Source: Candidatus Thioglobus autotrophicus (lineage in GTDB: Bacteria > Pseudomonadota > Gammaproteobacteria > PS1 > Pseudothioglobaceae). Taken from it: a stretch of DNA of 64,000 bases. A program made the position numbers and the translations under genes. The stretch covers positions 992,001 through 1,056,000 of the forward strand of contig NZ_CP010552.1 of NCBI RefSeq assembly GCF_001293165.1, given 5' to 3'. Positions 6,293 through 25,245 of this stretch are shown in pieces (the stretch's first letter is position 1; every line of letters starts with the position of its first letter). Under the pieces are notes generated by a model, which saw nothing but the letters and a program-made list of their open reading frames with translations, was not told the origin of the DNA and did no database searches.

Positions 6293-8743
6293 GTCGAATT
6301 CACAATAATCACAGGCAGTTTTATTGGGCAAGACTTGTGCTTGGCCTGATTGAAAATCCTGACTAGCTTGATTGAGTCTTTGTGTCCAAAGCTCTAATTG
6401 CTGATCCCATTCTTGACAGCTGCTTTTACGCCTGGATTGTTTGGGAAGGGAGTCAGGGTCTTTTGATAAACCTTTAAAACTTACTGCACTTGAGTTGAGT
6501 TCAATAAAAGCAGCGCCTTGGGTGTTATTAGTGACACTGTAGATGGGTAATTGTGGCTCGATAATATCTGCTGAGCACCATTTGGCGGTTGAAGTATCGC
6601 CCGTTTTGTAATCGAATACAATTTGATCGCCATTATCCATTTGATCAAGTCGGTCAAGTCGTGTATTGAAGCTTAATCCAACAATATCAACACGCACACT
6701 TTGCTCGGTGGCCAGTACGCGGAAATTCTCCCTAGCTTTATCGGTTTCGATAAATTTATGCAGCAGCTGTGTTAGTCTGATTTTTTCAATGGCTTTGTAG
6801 CCAGAGCTAGGATGGCGTTTGAGTGCAGCGTAAACTTTTTGATCAATGAGTGTGCCAAGCTCAGCAGGCGCTAATTGTAATAGTACTTCCTTTGAATCAA
6901 TTTCTTGATAGATATATTGCAAGGCGTTATGAATTGCATTGCCTTGTTCGCGCCTGTCTAGGCCGATATGGGGTTCATCATAACGCGCTAAATTGAGTCG
7001 ATGAGCAAACCCCTTAAAAGCGCAAGCCATTTGGTCTTTGAGTAGGCCAACCCCAGATTTAACCTCGGTCTGTGTATACCAAGTGCTAGTGTCATCTTGA
7101 AGTGATTCTGTTGCACAAGTGTTGACTGGTGTATCAGGAGGGGTAATGCTTTCAGTATCAAAGTAAACCAAGGGTGAGGGTAGTTGCTCGAGTGCCAAGT
7201 GGGATTTGGCATAAGATAAAATTACGCGATTTGATAATGAACACAAATTAGCTAACGTGTTTTGCGCATCCGTTTGAATAAGTTCATAACTACTATGCGT
7301 GATGGCGTGATGAATGGCGATATCAGTACTAATAAAGCGTGGCGCATTAAGTTTGGCGGGCAAAAAATCATGGCTCATGCCCATAACCCAAGCTTTATCA
7401 AAGCGCAAACCTTCTGCCTCTAAAGAGCCAATAATTTGAATGTTAGTCTGGCTGGATTGCGCTTGAAAAACAGTTTGATTATTAATGTCTTTGAGTTGTT
7501 GCAGCGCCGTTGTTGCAGAGCATTTATTTTGATGATGTGAAAGCTGGTTTAGCTTAAGAGAGCTAATTAAGTATTTGTTAAATAACTGGTATTCGCTACT
7601 ACTAAGTGGGCGATCTGTGGCAAATCCCCAATGGGTTAGTACGGCATTAAAGCTAAGCAAGTGCTCACTTAGTAGTTGATTTTTTAAGTCATTGAGTTGA
7701 ACAGTTTGAAACATATCCAGTAATACAGGGCATTGGCTGAGCGCCTGCTCTAAACGCTCTAATTGAAAATATTCAAGGGATAAAGATAAGGCGTGATTGG
7801 CGAGTAAATGTCGAGCACTACGCTCCAGTTGGTAGCCTCGAAGATAAACACTGGTTACGACTTGATTGAATAGAGTGGTTTGAATATGGTTAGCTTTAAT
7901 TTGAGCATTTAACTCAAGTAGGCCGAGTAAATCTTGAATTAGGGTGTAGTGAGATAAGGGTAGGCCTAACGAAATATTGTAAGCTTTTTGCCCCGTTTCT
8001 GTTAATAGGTCATCAAATGTTTGATCAAAAATTGAGCTTAATAGGTATTGCATCTCGCTGAGTTGTGGACACACGATAGCAATTGATTGATTTGGATTTT
8101 TAGCTTGCTGATGCTTAGCCCAAAGTGCAGCAGCCTTAATTTCATGAGTACTATTGTCAAAGCACTTTTGCTCAGTTTCATGTGTATATTGAGCGCCAAT
8201 AGTCTGATAATTTAGAGCATTAAATACTTGTTGTTGTAGCGGTGTAAGCGTTTTAAAGCCATAAACATGGGGTGCTTGAAGGCTATCCTTGTCTTTTAGT
8301 AGAAGTGCAGGTAGATCATTTGCATCAATGAGTTTTAAGTTGTGCTTGGTTTTTTGGTAATGCTTGATCCAATCTGTAAAAACCTCACAAATCTGAATTT
8401 TAGACTGGGCTAGTGTATCTAGCTCAATTAGATGATTAATGCAATAATCGTAATTTTTAATCACCTCATTGGTTAGTTGAGTTTGACGAGTTTGATCGAA
8501 TTGCTGTAATGAGGATTCGATCAAGTAACGCTGTTCCGTAGCGTCAATTAGACGCAGTGCGTTATGAGTTTGCTGTGACTGCCAATAGTGTTTGAGGTAT
8601 TGCTGCCAAGATAAGATATTTGGCAGTTGTGTCAGCGGTTGTTGTTTAGAAAAAGTGTATTTAAAAGCTAAAACTTGACGATTATTGGCAACAACAACTG
8701 TATCTGTTGTAACAAGGTGGGTCAGATCAGCATTTAAATGCAT
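6269..8743 (-). CDS. PD-(D/E)XK nuclease family protein, AddB/RecB-like probable DNA repair protein
   Basis: The 824-residue protein has a weakly conserved helicase-like N-terminal region and a C-terminal RecB-type nuclease. The catalytic core includes [17 protein letters not shown] and the IVFDYKTGD (D-x-K) motif near residue 705. Cysteines in QMACAFKG and in [11 protein letters not shown] near the C-terminus match an AddB-like four-cysteine iron-sulfur clamp. I would place it with the gammaproteobacterial 'probable DNA repair protein' group. No clear Walker A motif is visible, so it may not hydrolyse ATP itself. It starts directly after the engB stop and its 3' end overlaps that of cca on the other strand. 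Confidence 0.75.
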
Positions 8744-9343
8744 TTATTCGCCATAGCCAAAAAAAGTATCTAGGCGCGACCACAGCTCTTCTAAGCCTTG
8801 TTTTTTCAGGCTAGAGAATAGCTGAACATCGACGTAAGGATGGTTTTTAATGGTTTTTTTAACTTGTTGATAGGTATTAGCCGCTGCACCTTTTTTAAGT
8901 TTGTCAGACTTGGTTAAAATGATTTGTGTGGGCAGATTAATACTAACACACCAGTCCAGCATCATTTTGTCAAAAGGCTTGAGTGGATGACGAACATCCA
9001 TGACCAAAACAGCACCACGTAAGCAGTCACGCTTATCAAAATATTCGCTCATGTCTTGGTGCCATTGTTTTTTAACATGTTCGGGCACTTTGGCGTAGCC
9101 ATATCCAGGTAAATCAACCAGACGTCTATTTTCATCCAGTTCAAAAAATACTAAATGCTGAGTACGTCCTGGCGTGCGTGAAACTTTGGCCAACTTATTT
9201 TGCATGGTAAGGGTGTTAATAGAGCTCGACTTACCTGCATTGGATCTGCCCGCGAAAATAACCTCAAAACCTTCATCGGGTGGACAGCCTTTTAAAGAGG
9301 GGCAAGAGAGTAAGAATTTAGCTTGATGGTAGTGTTTGCGCAT
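8744..9343 (-). CDS. engB: Ribosome biogenesis GTP-binding protein YihA/EngB
   Basis: The 199-residue GTPase has the P-loop GRSNAGKS (residues 32-39), the G2/G3 region [28 protein letters not shown], and the G4 motif [10 protein letters not shown]. EngB is needed for assembly of the 50S subunit. The two Gly-Tyr-Gly-Tyr-Ala residues after DLPG are typical. Its stop codon abuts the start of the nuclease gene, so the two form an operon. It is divergent from the cytochrome gene at 9426, with 82 bp between starts. Confidence 0.96.
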
Positions 9344-9357
9344 TTATTGAAATTATG

Positions 9358-9420
9358 TATAATCAGAAATCAGTGGTATTTGAACTACTTACCATTTTAT
9401 ATTATTAAAAAACAAGGAGA
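9358..9420 (+). promoter_or_regulatory. Promoter -10 and ribosome binding site for the cytochrome c gene
   Basis: A TATAAT lies at 9358-9363 and a second AT-rich TATATT at 9398-9403. A strong AAGGAGAG ribosome binding site follows just before the ATG at 9426. No convincing -35 element is visible for either box. Confidence 0.4.
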
Positions 9421-9425
9421 GAGTA

Positions 9426-9707
9426 ATGAGAAAGGTTTTATTAGTAGCATCAGCTGTATTGGCAATGGGTTCTGTTCAGGCAAATCCATTTGACGCATTA
9501 GGTTGTTCAGGTTGTCATGGTGCGGGTGGCAAATCAGCAATTCCAACTTACCCATCATTAGCAAAATCAGCGCGTCCTGATCTGGATGTTGTGAAAGCGC
9601 TTAAAGATTTTCAATCTGGCGCTCGTGTAGATCCTACGATGAATGCAATGGCACCAATGGCTGCTGGTCAAGAGCAGGCGATTGCAGACTACTTAGCAGG
9701 ACAATAA
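9426..9707 (+). CDS. Small periplasmic monohaem cytochrome c (c553/c4-like)
   Basis: The 93-residue precursor has a signal peptide (MRKVLLVASAVLAMGSVQA) and one haem site CSGCH (Cys27-His31). A Met in the MAPMAAGQEQ segment near the C-terminus can serve as the second axial ligand. The mature protein is about 74 residues, small even for a cytochrome c, and resembles one half of a c4 cytochrome. It should shuttle electrons in the periplasm. It has a strong ribosome binding site and its own terminator, and is followed by a dihaem c4, which suggests a related role. Confidence 0.88.
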   Translation: MRKVLLVASAVLAMGSVQANPFDALGCSGCHGAGGKSAIPTYPSLAKSARPDLDVVKALKDFQSGARVDPTMNAMAPMAAGQEQAIADYLAGQ

Positions 9708-9744
9708 ATTACTTGGCGTCTTTTAAGACGCATTTGGTAAATTT

Positions 9745-9783
9745 AATAAGCCGATATTAACGTATAATATCGGCTTATTTTTT
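9745..9783 (+). terminator. Intrinsic terminator between the two cytochrome genes
   Basis: Perfect 14 bp arms (9745-9758 and 9766-9779) enclose a 7 nt loop and are followed by a T run. This separates the monohaem gene from the c4 gene. The stem contains a TATAAT at 9763-9768 that could double as the -10 box for the c4 gene. Confidence 0.9.
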
Positions 9784-9801
9784 TCTAAAAAGAGATACAT
9801 T

Positions 9802-10443
9802 ATGAATAAATTAGCACTGATCTTTGCAACGGCTCTAGCCCTTGTTTCCACTTACACTTTTGCTGCGGGTGACGCTGCTAAGGGTAAAGCTAAGTCTGCA
9901 ACGTGTACAGCTTGTCATGGTGCTAATGGCAATTCAATGGTGCCAAATTTTCCGAAATTAGCGGGACAAGGTGAAAAATACCTTTTTAAACAGCTTAAAG
10001 ATTTTAAATCGAATCAGCGTCAAGATGGATTAATGGCAGGTATCGTGGCAGTTTTAACGCCAGAAGATATGGCAGATTTATCCGCACACTTCTCTAAGCA
10101 AGTAATTACTCAAGGTGTTGCTAGTAAAACAGCTAATATTGCACTTGGTGAAAAACTTTACCGTGGTGGCGATAAATCTAGAGGTATTGCCGCTTGTATG
10201 GCTTGTCATGGTCCTCAAGGTGCAGGCATTCCATCTGCAGGATTTCCAGCACTTGCTTCTCAGCATGTTGCCTATACGACTAAGCAGTTAAAGGATTTTC
10301 GCCAAGTTTCTATCAATGCGCAAACAGATGCAAAAGCGCCAGCTAGAACTAATGATGATCGTAACATGATGATTGCATTTACCAAGGGCTTAACCAACGC
10401 TGAAATTGACGCTTTAGCTCAGTATATTGCTGGCTTGCATTAA
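9802..10443 (+). CDS. Dihaem cytochrome c4
   Basis: The 213-residue precursor has a signal peptide ending near TYTFA (residue 21) and two class I cytochrome domains. The first has CTACH (Cys35-His39) and the second CMACH (about residues 133-137), each with a downstream Met ligand. The repeated GxNGNS...P..P.LAGQ..Y pattern is typical of c4. These proteins carry electrons between the bc1 complex or periplasmic donors and terminal oxidases. The gene has its own terminators on both sides, so it is probably monocistronic. Confidence 0.93.
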   Translation: MNKLALIFATALALVSTYTFAAGDAAKGKAKSATCTACHGANGNSMVPNFPKLAGQGEKYLFKQLKDFKSNQRQDGLMAGIVAVLTPEDMADLSAHFSKQVITQGVASKTANIALGEKLYRGGDKSRGIAACMACHGPQGAGIPSAGFPALASQHVAYTTKQLKDFRQVSINAQTDAKAPARTNDDRNMMIAFTKGLTNAEIDALAQYIAGLH

Positions 10444-22246: not shown

Positions 22247-22272
22247 AAAAACCGCCCAATTGGGCGGTTTTT
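22247..22272 (-). terminator. Intrinsic terminator after the DUF302 gene
   Basis: A perfect palindrome with arms AAAAACCGCCCAA (22247-22259) and its complement (22260-22272) is flanked by an A tract that reads as a T run on the minus strand. Confidence 0.88.
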
Positions 22273-22290
22273 AACTGATTCAACTACAGC

Positions 22291-22911
22291 TTAGAAGTCT
22301 CCTTCTGCGCCACCATCTTGAATCGCTGTAATGACACGCTTAACCTCTAATGCTTTTTCAAGTAAGTAGTCTGGTAATGGTGCACCACCGTAAATCATAG
22401 CGTTCATGTCTAATGTGTACAACCATCTCTGGCCTTCTTTATCTTCAATAAGTGCTAAACGACAAGGCAAGTAAGCTGAGAACGCATCTGAATGATCAAC
22501 CATAGTCATTGCGGTACGTGGAGAGCAATATTGGTAGATTTTTAAGAAACGCTGCTTTTCACCTGTTTGCAATTCAACCATTTCAGATAATGGTAGCATG
22601 CCAACTGAGCGAATTCCTTCAGCCGTTGCGATACTTTCCATTGCCTCTTCAACATCGCTGTTTGACACATCGTCAGCCACTTTAACACGCACAATAGAAG
22701 CCATGGTGATATCGCCTGTATCTAATAATGTATTAGTCATTGGCATATATACCTTAGACATAGAATCTGGGTGCAGCTTTGGTGAAACCATTTCGCTAAT
22801 AACTTTGCCAGTTACGCCATCGTACTTCATTTGTAGTGACACACCGTAATAAACAGCAATGGCGCCAATAACAATTAACACCCATTTAACCAAACTAATA
22901 ATTCCACCCAT
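22291..22911 (-). CDS. DUF302 domain protein with an N-terminal membrane anchor
   Basis: The 206-residue protein has one N-terminal transmembrane helix (about residues 5-24) and a DUF302 domain toward the C-terminus, including YQYCSPRTAMTMVDHSDAF and LPCRLALIED. DUF302 proteins are common in sulfur-oxidising bacteria but have no established activity. Two cysteines (in YQYC and LPCR) are of interest for thiol or redox chemistry, as inference. An AGGAGA ribosome binding site precedes the start. It is separated from the upstream CBS gene by 84 bp and has its own terminator. Confidence 0.75.
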   Translation of the reverse strand: MGGIISLVKWVLIVIGAIAVYYGVSLQMKYDGVTGKVISEMVSPKLHPDSMSKVYMPMTNTLLDTGDITMASIVRVKVADDVSNSDVEEAMESIATAEGIRSVGMLPLSEMVELQTGEKQRFLKIYQYCSPRTAMTMVDHSDAFSAYLPCRLALIEDKEGQRWLYTLDMNAMIYGGAPLPDYLLEKALEVKRVITAIQDGGAEGDF

Positions 22912-22995: not shown

Positions 22996-23409
22996 TTATG
23001 CAATTCTTAGCCCGTTAAAAACAATACTGGTTAAGCTGATAACGCCAACTACTTTGCCATTGTCTAGTACAGGACACCTGGATAAATTAAAATGAGTAAG
23101 TAGTTCAGCGCAGTAGCGAATATCCATATCAGGATGAACCGACATGGCTGGCTTATTCATAATTTCGTAGATATTGACTCGGTCAAGTGCACGATCTTTA
23201 GCAATAACTTTTGAAGCAATATCTGCAATTAAAACAACGCCATATTCATCATGGTCATGTGATTTTTCTACTAAAAGCACTTTTGTTTTTTTGTATTTCA
23301 TGTCAGCAAGCGCTTGTTCTACAGTAGTTTTTCCATCAACAATATCAACCTGTGGCCACATGACATCTTTGACAAAAGTAGGTGTTTTTCTTTGTGTATT
23401 AGTACTCAT
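22996..23409 (-). CDS. CBS-domain protein
   Basis: The 137-residue protein consists almost entirely of a CBS pair (Bateman module): the first repeat runs from VKDVMWPQVDIVDGKTTVEQ to about residue 80, the second from MNKPAMSVHPDMDIRYCAEL to the end. CBS pairs bind adenosine nucleotides and regulate attached or partner proteins. Here it is free-standing and its ATG overlaps the stop of the PII-like gene by one base. This is the last gene of the DUF1538-DUF1538-PII-like-CBS unit, so a regulatory role on the transporter is likely but inferred. Confidence 0.85.
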   Translation of the reverse strand: MSTNTQRKTPTFVKDVMWPQVDIVDGKTTVEQALADMKYKKTKVLLVEKSHDHDEYGVVLIADIASKVIAKDRALDRVNIYEIMNKPAMSVHPDMDIRYCAELLTHFNLSRCPVLDNGKVVGVISLTSIVFNGLRIA

Positions 23410-23759
23410 TATATTTTCTCCTCTACGGTGTGTTCTAGTGCTTGAATTTGATGCATAACACCCATGGCGTCTTCTACATCTATTTGGAAAGCGATACCCT
23501 CTTGTGAATTTTCCTCAAAACTACCTGCTTGAGCAATACTTTCTAAGATTTCTCTTGCTAAGTGCTGTTCTACAAGTAAGAGTAATACATCTCTAGGGGT
23601 TTCCAAGCTTAATCCTAAAAATGTTTTGGTGTGCTCAAGACCTTCTCCTCGAGCTTGAGAGATGATGGTGGATCCTGTGGCGCCTTTTTCTCTAGCAGCC
23701 TCAAGAATTTTGTCGGTTTTGTCGCTATCAACAAAAGCGATAATCAATTTAAAATGCAT
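23409..23759 (-). CDS. PII-like nitrogen-regulator superfamily protein
   Basis: The 116-residue protein has the ferredoxin-like PII pattern: MHFKLIIAFVDSDKTDKILEA at the N-terminus, a segment GATGSTIISQARGEGLEH where PII proteins carry the start of the T-loop, and LLLLVEQHLAREILESIAQAG. The modified tyrosine of classical GlnB/GlnK is not seen. PII-like proteins sense adenine nucleotides and small signals and often control a neighbouring transporter. It lies 11 bp after the second DUF1538 gene and overlaps the CBS gene by one base. Confidence 0.8.
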   Translation of the reverse strand: MHFKLIIAFVDSDKTDKILEAAREKGATGSTIISQARGEGLEHTKTFLGLSLETPRDVLLLLVEQHLAREILESIAQAGSFEENSQEGIAFQIDVEDAMGVMHQIQALEHTVEEKI

Positions 23760-23770
23760 AATGCCTCCTG

Positions 23771-24517
23771 TTATTGATTGGGTTTGTCATGGTTGGAAAG
23801 ATGAATAATTTGTACATAAGCCAGTACACTCATAATGGGAAAGAGTGAAGCGAAGGCAATCAAGCCAAAGCCGTCTGTGAGTGGATTTCGCCCATCAATA
23901 GCACTGGAAAGGCCGAGTCCTAAAGCGGCAATAATGGGTACGGTTACAATGGAGGTGGTTACCCCACCTGCATCATAAGCGAGTGCAACAATACTTTTGG
24001 GCGAAAAATAAGTTTGAATCAGGACTAATATATAGCCACTAATAATAAAATAATGCAGGGGTAATCCGGTCACAATTCTAAAGCTTCCCAGTGCAATACC
24101 AATCGCCACGCCAATCGCCACTGTAATTCGTAACGCCTTAACTTTGATAAAACCACCCGATACCTGGTTAGCTTTAATTGCTACCGCTAATAGTGAAGGC
24201 TCAGCAATGGTGGTGGCAAAGCCAATACACCCTGCAAAAATATAAACCCAATAATAGCCGTACCAATCTAGCGGGTTGCTGACTAAATCGCTTGATGTAA
24301 GCTGTTTTGCCATGATTTTCCCGAGTGGGAATAGGGCTTTTTCAAGGCCAATGATTAAAAAAGTAAGGCCTAGCCAAACTAAGATAAACCCAACAATAAT
24401 GCGTTTTAAATGTGGGATTTTTTGCTTAAGTATGCCTACTTGGAAAATAAACAAAATAGCGATAATGGGTACAACCGCCCAAAACGTTTCAACAAAATGG
24501 TGTGTGAATGACATCAT
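23771..24517 (-). CDS. DUF1538 membrane protein, second subunit
   Basis: The 248-residue integral membrane protein has about six hydrophobic segments and the DUF1538 hallmarks GCIGFATTIAEPSLLAVAIK and LAYDAGGVTTSIVTVPIIAA, followed by GRNPLTDGFGLIAFASLFPI. It is a paralogue of the neighbouring upstream gene. From memory, a DUF1538 pair from Halomonas (UmpAB) was reported as a two-component cation/proton antiporter; whether that activity applies here is not shown. Its start overlaps the stop of its partner by four bases, implying balanced production of the two subunits. Confidence 0.85.
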   Translation of the reverse strand: MMSFTHHFVETFWAVVPIIAILFIFQVGILKQKIPHLKRIIVGFILVWLGLTFLIIGLEKALFPLGKIMAKQLTSSDLVSNPLDWYGYYWVYIFAGCIGFATTIAEPSLLAVAIKANQVSGGFIKVKALRITVAIGVAIGIALGSFRIVTGLPLHYFIISGYILVLIQTYFSPKSIVALAYDAGGVTTSIVTVPIIAALGLGLSSAIDGRNPLTDGFGLIAFASLFPIMSVLAYVQIIHLSNHDKPNQ

Positions 24518-25245
24518 TGAAAAATACCAAATATCATAATTGCGACAATGGGCAGTAATGAGGCGATGGCAATCATACCAAAGCCGTCAATAAGAGGGTT
24601 TCTAGCACGAATACTGCTACTAAGTCCAACGCCCAATGCGGTTAACAAAGGGACGGTAATTGGCCCCGTGGTCACACCACCTGCATCATAAGCAATGCCA
24701 ATAATAAAGTCAGGTGCCAACAGTGTACCCACCATAACTAACAGATAGCCGCCGATAATCAAATATTGAATGGCCCAGCCTTTAAGGATTTTAATCACAC
24801 CAATCACCACTGAAATCCCAACTGCAATGGCTACAGTGTAACGCAGGGTTTGAGCATACTGATTCAGCTCAGCATCTGAAGTAATAATACCGCCAAATTG
24901 GGCTACTTTCGCCGCTTCATTGGCCATCACAATGAGATCAGGCTCGGCAATTGTAGCGCCAAATCCTAGTGCAAAAGAAAAGACAAGTAGCCAGGCAATA
25001 GAGCCTTTTTTTACAAAAGAGAAGGCTAAGACTTCGCCAATGGGAAACAAGCCCAGCTTTAATCCATGCATAAACAGAGTAAGGCCAATCAGTACAAAAC
25101 CCGTACCTATGACAATATTGTCCATATTGGGGATGGATTGTTGCAATACCACAATCTGAAAAAAAGCGATAACTAACACAATTGGCGCTAAATCTTTGGA
25201 ACTGTCGACTAGATTTTTAGCAAATTGATAAAGTGTTTTCTTCAT
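24514..25245 (-). CDS. DUF1538 membrane protein, first subunit
   Basis: The 243-residue integral membrane protein carries the DUF1538 motifs LGFGATIAEPDLIVMANEAA and IAYDAGGVTTGPITVPLLTA, then ARNPLIDGFGMIAIASLLP. The AEP and YDAGG motifs are shared with the adjacent paralogue. It is the first gene of the four-gene unit and is divergent from pabC-mltG, with about 40 bp between the two start codons. The conserved acidic residues inside predicted membrane segments fit ion transport, which is inference. Confidence 0.85.
   Translation of the reverse strand: MKKTLYQFAKNLVDSSKDLAPIVLVIAFFQIVVLQQSIPNMDNIVIGTGFVLIGLTLFMHGLKLGLFPIGEVLAFSFVKKGSIAWLLVFSFALGFGATIAEPDLIVMANEAAKVAQFGGIITSDAELNQYAQTLRYTVAIAVGISVVIGVIKILKGWAIQYLIIGGYLLVMVGTLLAPDFIIGIAYDAGGVTTGPITVPLLTALGVGLSSSIRARNPLIDGFGMIAIASLLPIVAIMIFGIFQ

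Follow-up and report, generated by a model that had tools for sequence, protein, structure and literature searches.

A PII-like protein as near-constant partner of the DUF1538 (UmpAB) family: a candidate PII-regulated cation/proton antiporter in Candidatus Thioglobus autotrophicus

The window analysed here, a stretch of 64,000 nucleotides from Candidatus Thioglobus autotrophicus (contig NZ_CP010552.1, positions 992,001 to 1,056,000), contains four minus-strand genes for two DUF1538 membrane subunits, a PII-like protein and a free-standing CBS-pair protein, and these form a real, conserved and functionally coherent unit in which the PII-like protein is a near-constant partner of DUF1538. We think it reasonably likely that these genes encode an UmpAB-type cation/proton antiporter gated by the T-loop of a dedicated PII-like control protein, with the CBS protein as a second cytosolic sensor. 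A wider proposal, to which we give somewhat better than even chances, is that near-obligate PII control extends to the whole DUF1538 transporter family, across several phyla, the two- and three-domain PII chains being an asymmetric gate in which one domain is conserved and the others have drifted. Both the kind of transporter and PII control of transporters are known; what is new, as far as our searches tell, is their near-obligate combination and the existence of double and triple PII forms.

The unit begins with umpA (24514..25245, minus strand; 243 aa; Pfam DUF1538, E 1.1e-64), which overlaps by four bases its paralogue umpB (23771..24517, minus strand; 248 aa; Pfam DUF1538, E 2.7e-66). After a spacing of 11 bases follows the PII-like gene (23409..23759, minus strand; 116 aa; Pfam P-II, E 9.4e-11), which has one base in common with the gene for the CBS-pair protein (22996..23409, minus strand; 137 aa; Pfam CBS, E 1.1e-17), and the four genes constitute a single compact unit. 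The initial annotation had described two overlapping DUF1538 paralogues with shared AEP and YDAGGVTT motifs, in agreement with Pfam, with the presence of the two motifs in both UmpA and UmpB, with the 42% identity of these proteins and with the coordinates, and its account of the spacing around the PII-like gene proved exact to the base. All four genes are under strong purifying selection: against the corresponding locus of another Candidatus Thioglobus sp. (L043), dN is 0.04-0.06 and dS 0.68-1.42, giving dN/dS of about 0.03-0.07 by the Nei-Gojobori method. A conserved four-gene neighbourhood across genomes, which the initial annotation had set beforehand as a test of its proposal, was indeed found, the order umpA-umpB-PII-CBS recurring in distant bacteria. 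This recurrence, together with low dN relative to dS, argues that the arrangement is not due to chance, and chance clustering is ruled out by the class co-occurrence and adjacency counts given below and by the dN/dS values against L043.

Outside the four genes conservation is slight. A gene for a DUF302 protein (22291..22911, minus strand; 206 aa; Pfam DUF302, 3e-10) is a possible fifth member in the window's own family only, where 25 of the 34 loci that could be assessed have it within 400 bases 3' of the CBS gene and 11 further loci are too short to judge. Flanking genes are otherwise not conserved, the largest common neighbour family occurring in 9 of 65 loci, and a larger conserved operon was rejected on this count, DUF302 of the window's family apart. 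On the 3' side of the DUF302 gene there is a terminator-like hairpin of 11 pairs followed by a T-run (22247..22272, minus strand); it has the longest stem among the three terminator-like sites of the region, a number close to the 2.9 expected from shuffled sequences, and promoter-like sites in the region are likewise not enriched (10, against 9.3 in shuffles). The host genome is a single contig of 1.51 Mb with one DUF1538 pair, and the UmpA of one Candidatus Thioglobus locus is 90% identical to that of the window.

The two membrane proteins belong by sequence to the UmpAB (DUF1538) family. Both far exceed the Pfam PF07556 gathering cut-off of 22.6 bits (UmpA 218.1, UmpB 223.4). The cut-offs of the NCBIfam equivalog models NF041627 and NF041628 for UmpA and UmpB are not reached (320.5 bits against 490 for UmpA, 304.6 against 500 for UmpB), yet the top model of each protein is the expected subunit. 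Among 99 aligned UmpA and UmpB sequences, E101, P102, D187, G189, G190, T192, T193 and D220 (umpA numbering) are invariant, and the predicted model of UmpA is helical (mean pLDDT 90.9), with helix breaks at the AEP and DAGGVTT motifs. Comparison of this model with solved folds gave no convincing relative (best Foldseek E 0.66; best VIA-align Z 5.7), which is not proof of a new fold; a search of PDB sequences with the 99-row DUF1538 profile gave no match, and a comparison of the two halves of UmpA detected no internal repeat (hhalign probability 1.5%).

The closest characterised system is UmpAB of Halomonas zhaodongensis, known since 2017 and reported as a Na+(Li+,K+)/H+ antiporter (PMC5484666), in keeping with what the initial annotation had said of this pair. 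Likeness to the window lies in the two overlapping paralogous DUF1538 genes and in the top-ranking NCBIfam models, and the difference in scores that, for the window proteins, stay under the equivalog cut-offs. The Halomonas genes were ORF3 and ORF4 of a 4.2-kb clone holding a truncated ORF1 and ORFs 2-4, and the available text of that article has no mention of PII, P-II or CBS (PMC5484666). Since Halomonas UmpAB is reported to be active by itself in E. coli (PMC5484666), the PII-like and CBS proteins would be dispensable for basal transport, and a role in control is their natural reading.

Association of the PII-like protein with DUF1538 was examined in an even sample of 369 genomes of the window's class, the PII-like family being counted at E 1e-9. 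DUF1538 occurs in 125 of these genomes, spanning 98 genera, and the PII-like family in 124; both are present in 121, DUF1538 alone in 4, the PII-like family alone in 3 and neither in 241 (Fisher P 3e-88, a value not corrected for kinship). Broken loci or a diverged PII gene account for most of the seven exceptions. In two of the genomes with PII alone the contig stops at the locus (G180, G398), and the third has a DUF1538 fragment just upstream (G272); as to those with DUF1538 alone, two have a diverged PII gene directly downstream (G225, G276), one has a PII gene recognised by eye (G315), and the locus of the last is broken by a run of N (G365). Physical linkage is also close: loci were checked in 123 of the class genomes, and in 114 of these no more than 200 bases separate the PII gene from DUF1538. 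Of the other nine, four run into a contig end, two have gaps of 302 and 1389 bases, one has the order PII-CBS-UmpAB, and the last two are G315 and G365; in the remaining two of the 125 (G045, G422) the coordinates also place PII adjacent to DUF1538. In PII-regulated transporters the gene for a PII-fold protein is coupled to a single transporter family, and the co-occurrence and adjacency seen here amount to such a coupling.

Named genomes gave the same picture on a wider scale. Among the best 80 of at least 546 loci (L042-L121), a selection biased to close relatives, a PII-like gene stands beside DUF1538 in 74 and a CBS gene in 70. Four of the six loci lacking PII end within 180 bases of DUF1538, and two are real gaps: the assembly of L058 has kept a PII-CBS pair away from umpAB, and in L061, a locus of a Thiomargarita MAG, umpA-umpB stands without PII beside it, no PII being found elsewhere in the assembly. 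According to record titles these best 80 loci include Gammaproteobacteria, Alphaproteobacteria, Desulfobacterota, Bacteroidota and Zixiibacteriota. The bias to close relatives does not apply to the samples taken from the class, from Bacteroidota and from Desulfobacterota. Among 247 genomes of Bacteroidota, the phylum of a Lutibacter record (this phylum name and the next are deduced from the record titles of L077 and L073), DUF1538 exceeds the cut-off in 9, with PII adjacent in all nine and with two or three PII domains in eight. In Desulfobacterota, the phylum of a Desulfobacula record, DUF1538 was found in 12 of 247 genomes; PII is adjacent by HMM at 10 of these 12 loci and by eye at one more (G719), and one locus is cut. 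Nine plasmid records and six phage-labelled records also contain DUF1538, and PII adjoins it in all eight that were examined (seven plasmid, one phage-labelled). The pairing of DUF1538 with the PII-like protein thus extends to Desulfobacterota, Bacteroidota, Alphaproteobacteria and Bacillota. It is already visible in public annotation, the PII gene being labelled 'P-II family nitrogen regulator' in all five annotated plasmid or phage-labelled records; text searches of the open-licence literature found no account of a PII-DUF1538 link and no paper that contains both 'DUF1538' and 'P-II family'.

While the partner stays DUF1538, the number of PII domains varies from one to three, and the system takes several architectural forms. 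The commonest, that of the window, has umpA, umpB, PII and CBS as separate genes. In a second form an UmpA-UmpB fusion of about 500 residues is accompanied by PII and CBS (e.g., G188, G202, G239), and in a third a fusion of about 590 residues is accompanied by PII without CBS (G085, G127, G200, G276, G313, G396, G411). A fourth form, in Bacteroidota, Clostridia and some Desulfobacterota, has two PII genes or one chain of two PII domains and no CBS, double PII being present in all five Clostridia records; in a fifth, a fusion of about 630-730 residues is followed by a chain of 380-405 residues with three PII-like segments. The C-terminal domain outscores the N-terminal one in all 13 distinct double-PII chains. 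When aligned, the segments of the triple chains match the PII-like profile with pairwise E values of 1e-9, 5e-14 and 1e-7, and in single triple chains only the middle segment, or the first and the middle, scores well.

In the commonest version of the system the CBS protein is present as an accessory. In the class sample the CBS family and DUF1538 occur together in 111 genomes, DUF1538 alone in 14, CBS alone in 3 and neither in 241, a count that set aside six genomes (G154, G193, G219, G252, G283, G364) in which the sole CBS match falls within a much longer frame, of 591-1196 aa; with these kept, the figures are 111, 14, 9 and 235. The PII-like family is present in all 114 class genomes with the CBS family, and the CBS gene is missing at loci L076, L088 and L101 though sequence room is ample. 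The initial annotation had suggested a nucleotide-regulated transporter with dual sensing; its regulatory part is likely, given the tie between the PII-like protein and DUF1538, nucleotide sensing is putative, and dual sensing would be a feature of one clade, since several whole versions are without the CBS protein. Among solved sequences the closest to the CBS-pair protein is the CBS half of CBS-CP12 of Microcystis (5NMU; E 3.2e-19 with the single sequence, 7.7e-38 with the family profile), from which the window protein differs in being free-standing, with 137 aa, no CP12 and CBS as the only domain over its Pfam cut-off. CBS-CP12 itself is reportedly AMP-dependent.

The PII-like protein scores 42.4 bits against a P-II Pfam cut-off of 25, and its single-chain model is predicted to adopt the PII fold (mean pLDDT 85.7). 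Foldseek places CPII, SbtB and GlnK level at E of about 1e-6, and VIA-align puts a nitrogen PII first (Z 12.7, rmsd 2.8 over 96 residues). Searches with the protein as a single sequence reached at best E 0.11 in the PDB and found no relative among viral contigs, and the SbtB sequence matches the family profile weakly (E 0.73-0.74). A loop between strands at residues 37-55 of the model, 19 residues long, occupies the T-loop position, and 6 of the 17 residues invariant in the 47-sequence family alignment fall within it (R37, G38, G40, F47, G49, L50); around the presumed nucleotide cleft, G26, T28, G29, T31, R37, G38 and G40 are invariant. Classical nitrogen PII proteins (GlnB/GlnK) carry a T-loop tyrosine, a B-loop lysine and C-loop arginines, and their basic residues hold the phosphates of the nucleotide. 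These features are absent from the PII-like family alignment and present in both GlnK copies of the host, which have the T-loop tyrosine, GDGKIF and VRIRTGE where the PII-like family has GIAF and VG. As the basic phosphate-contact residues are not conserved in the family, ATP or ADP should not be assumed to be its ligand. The two other PII proteins of the host each lie directly upstream of an amtB-like gene, and with two ordinary glnK-amtB pairs in the genome the PII-like protein represents a separate PII lineage; that it is a third ordinary GlnK copy is ruled out by its differences from these two at the classical residues. One stray family member lies upstream of a CPA2 Na+/H+ exchanger that has a TrkA_N domain, with 58 bases between them, which independently ties the lineage to cation/proton exchange, and a second PII copy in genome G441 adjoins cytochrome bd oxidase genes and no transporter.

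With so close a tie to DUF1538, the PII-like protein is best read as a regulator, and since it accompanies such exchangers in nearly all the genomes examined, it probably turns the exchanger on or off. In the mechanism that we infer, contact, trimer, ligand, inhibition and substrate included, UmpA and UmpB would form the membrane transporter, as others have shown for Halomonas UmpAB, and the PII-like protein, probably a trimer, would bind a small molecule from the cytosol, for which an adenine nucleotide or related metabolite is the likeliest candidate, and this ligand would set the shape of its T-loop. By analogy with GlnK-AmtB and SbtB-SbtA, the T-loop would dock on the cytoplasmic face of UmpAB and there open or, more likely, block ion exchange. 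A further signal, an adenylate of the AMP type, would come in through the CBS protein, with either the PII-like protein or the transporter as its target. It is the conserved T-loop, the constant pairing and the precedents of GlnK-AmtB and SbtB-SbtA (PMC10710835, PMC8352866) that suggest docking of this kind, most likely inhibitory. In the SbtA-SbtB structure, solved with AMP, the T-loop of SbtB lies within the transporter cleft (PMC8352866). The window unit resembles GlnK-AmtB in that a PII-fold gene adjoins its putative target transporter and the T-loop is of similar length, but the transporter family is another one and the PII-like protein is without the GlnK T-loop tyrosine and phosphate contacts. 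With SbtB-SbtA it shares a PII-like regulator tied to an ion-coupled transporter, and with SbtB and CPII a similar predicted fold, but its partner is DUF1538 and not SbtA or a carboxysome locus; SbtA or carboxysome genes were not found conserved in the flanks of the window unit and 65 relatives.

Other explanations for this association can be weighed against the same evidence. PII proteins have many soluble targets, and the PII-like and CBS proteins might be made together with UmpAB and act elsewhere, on transcription or on an enzyme, reporting ionic or energy state without gating; the stray PII near cytochrome bd genes and the PII-CBS pair apart from umpAB in L058 show that the linkage is not absolute. 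We regard this as unlikely, as the near-total co-occurrence with DUF1538 and the lack of any other conserved neighbour point to the transporter as the shared target. The Thioglobus-like lineage of the window is autotrophic, and in autotrophs the DUF1538 pair could move bicarbonate or another anion with Na+ or H+, the PII-like protein being a carbon sensor of the SbtB/CPII type. That CPII and SbtB, both carbon-linked, are top Foldseek matches of the model would fit, as would the kinship of the CBS protein with CBS-CP12, a cyanobacterial regulator of carbon fixation (PMC9514657), but the former tie with nitrogen-type GlnK in Foldseek and VIA-align prefers nitrogen PII, the system is also found in Clostridia and Bacteroidota, which mostly do not fix CO2, the stray family member adjoins a CPA2 antiporter, and transport has been reported for a single DUF1538 member, an exchanger of Na+, Li+ and K+ (PMC5484666), so that an anion carrier appears quite improbable. 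Least probable of all, in our estimate, is that the PII-like protein senses no ligand and is constitutively a third subunit or an assembly factor, any extra PII domains being structural: its constant presence, the loss of the classical phosphate contacts and the low-scoring N-terminal domains of the double-PII chains could be read in this way, but Halomonas umpAB alone is active in E. coli (PMC5484666), and the residues near the presumed nucleotide cleft are invariant.

An exchanger controlled by its own PII-like protein would matter for the organism as well as for the PII field. A machine-learning study tabulates DUF1538 among genes of pH adaptation (PMC13255231), and a search of the host genome covering the PF00999 family found no antiporter of that family, so UmpAB may be a main exchanger of this marine Thioglobus-like lineage. 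The transporter targets of PII listed in a review are AmtB/Amt1, NrtABCD, UrtABCDE and SbtA, a list from which, in the available part of the review, a target class of the DUF1538 type is absent, and PII use is described there as apparently limited to transporters able to act as trimers (PMC10710835). If our reading is correct, either UmpAB assembles in threes or this trimer rule fails, and with the natural two- and three-domain PII chains one could explore how many T-loops it takes to gate a transporter. PII control would thereby be extended to the balance of pH, Na+ and K+, and a transporter so far studied without any control would have one built in.

A gene encoding a DUF302 protein lies 3' of the unit on the minus strand (window 22291-22911), and within the window's family a DUF302 gene holds this position in 25 of the 34 assessable loci. 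A few further loci, such as L074, L160, L163 and L168, likewise contain related DUF302 genes. The host genome carries two ordinary glnK-amtB pairs (locus L295:1597-3219 and 8489-10055), which are separated from each other by about 5 kb and from the unit by about 55-60 kb. Stray members of the PII-like family were observed at two loci: one (L232:7001-7348) is followed 58 bases downstream by the gene for a CPA2 Na+/H+ exchanger with a TrkA_N domain (L232:7407-9383), and another (L233:5959-6354) adjoins cytochrome bd oxidase genes.

DUF1538 is also present in six phage-labelled records, L303 (MT835548.1) and five others, and PII accompanies it in L303, the single one of the six examined. These scaffolds, which are unannotated and derive mostly from human faeces, may be mislabelled bacterial DNA.

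Among loci with a fused DUF1538 protein, in which UmpA and UmpB form a single chain, L187/L244 (genome G161) shows the tandem order fused DUF1538, PII and a second DUF1538 gene. Directly 3' of long fused proteins (~630-730 aa), L237, L238, L243, L270 and L282 encode proteins of 380-405 aa that each contain three PII-like segments and are candidate covalent PII pseudo-trimers.
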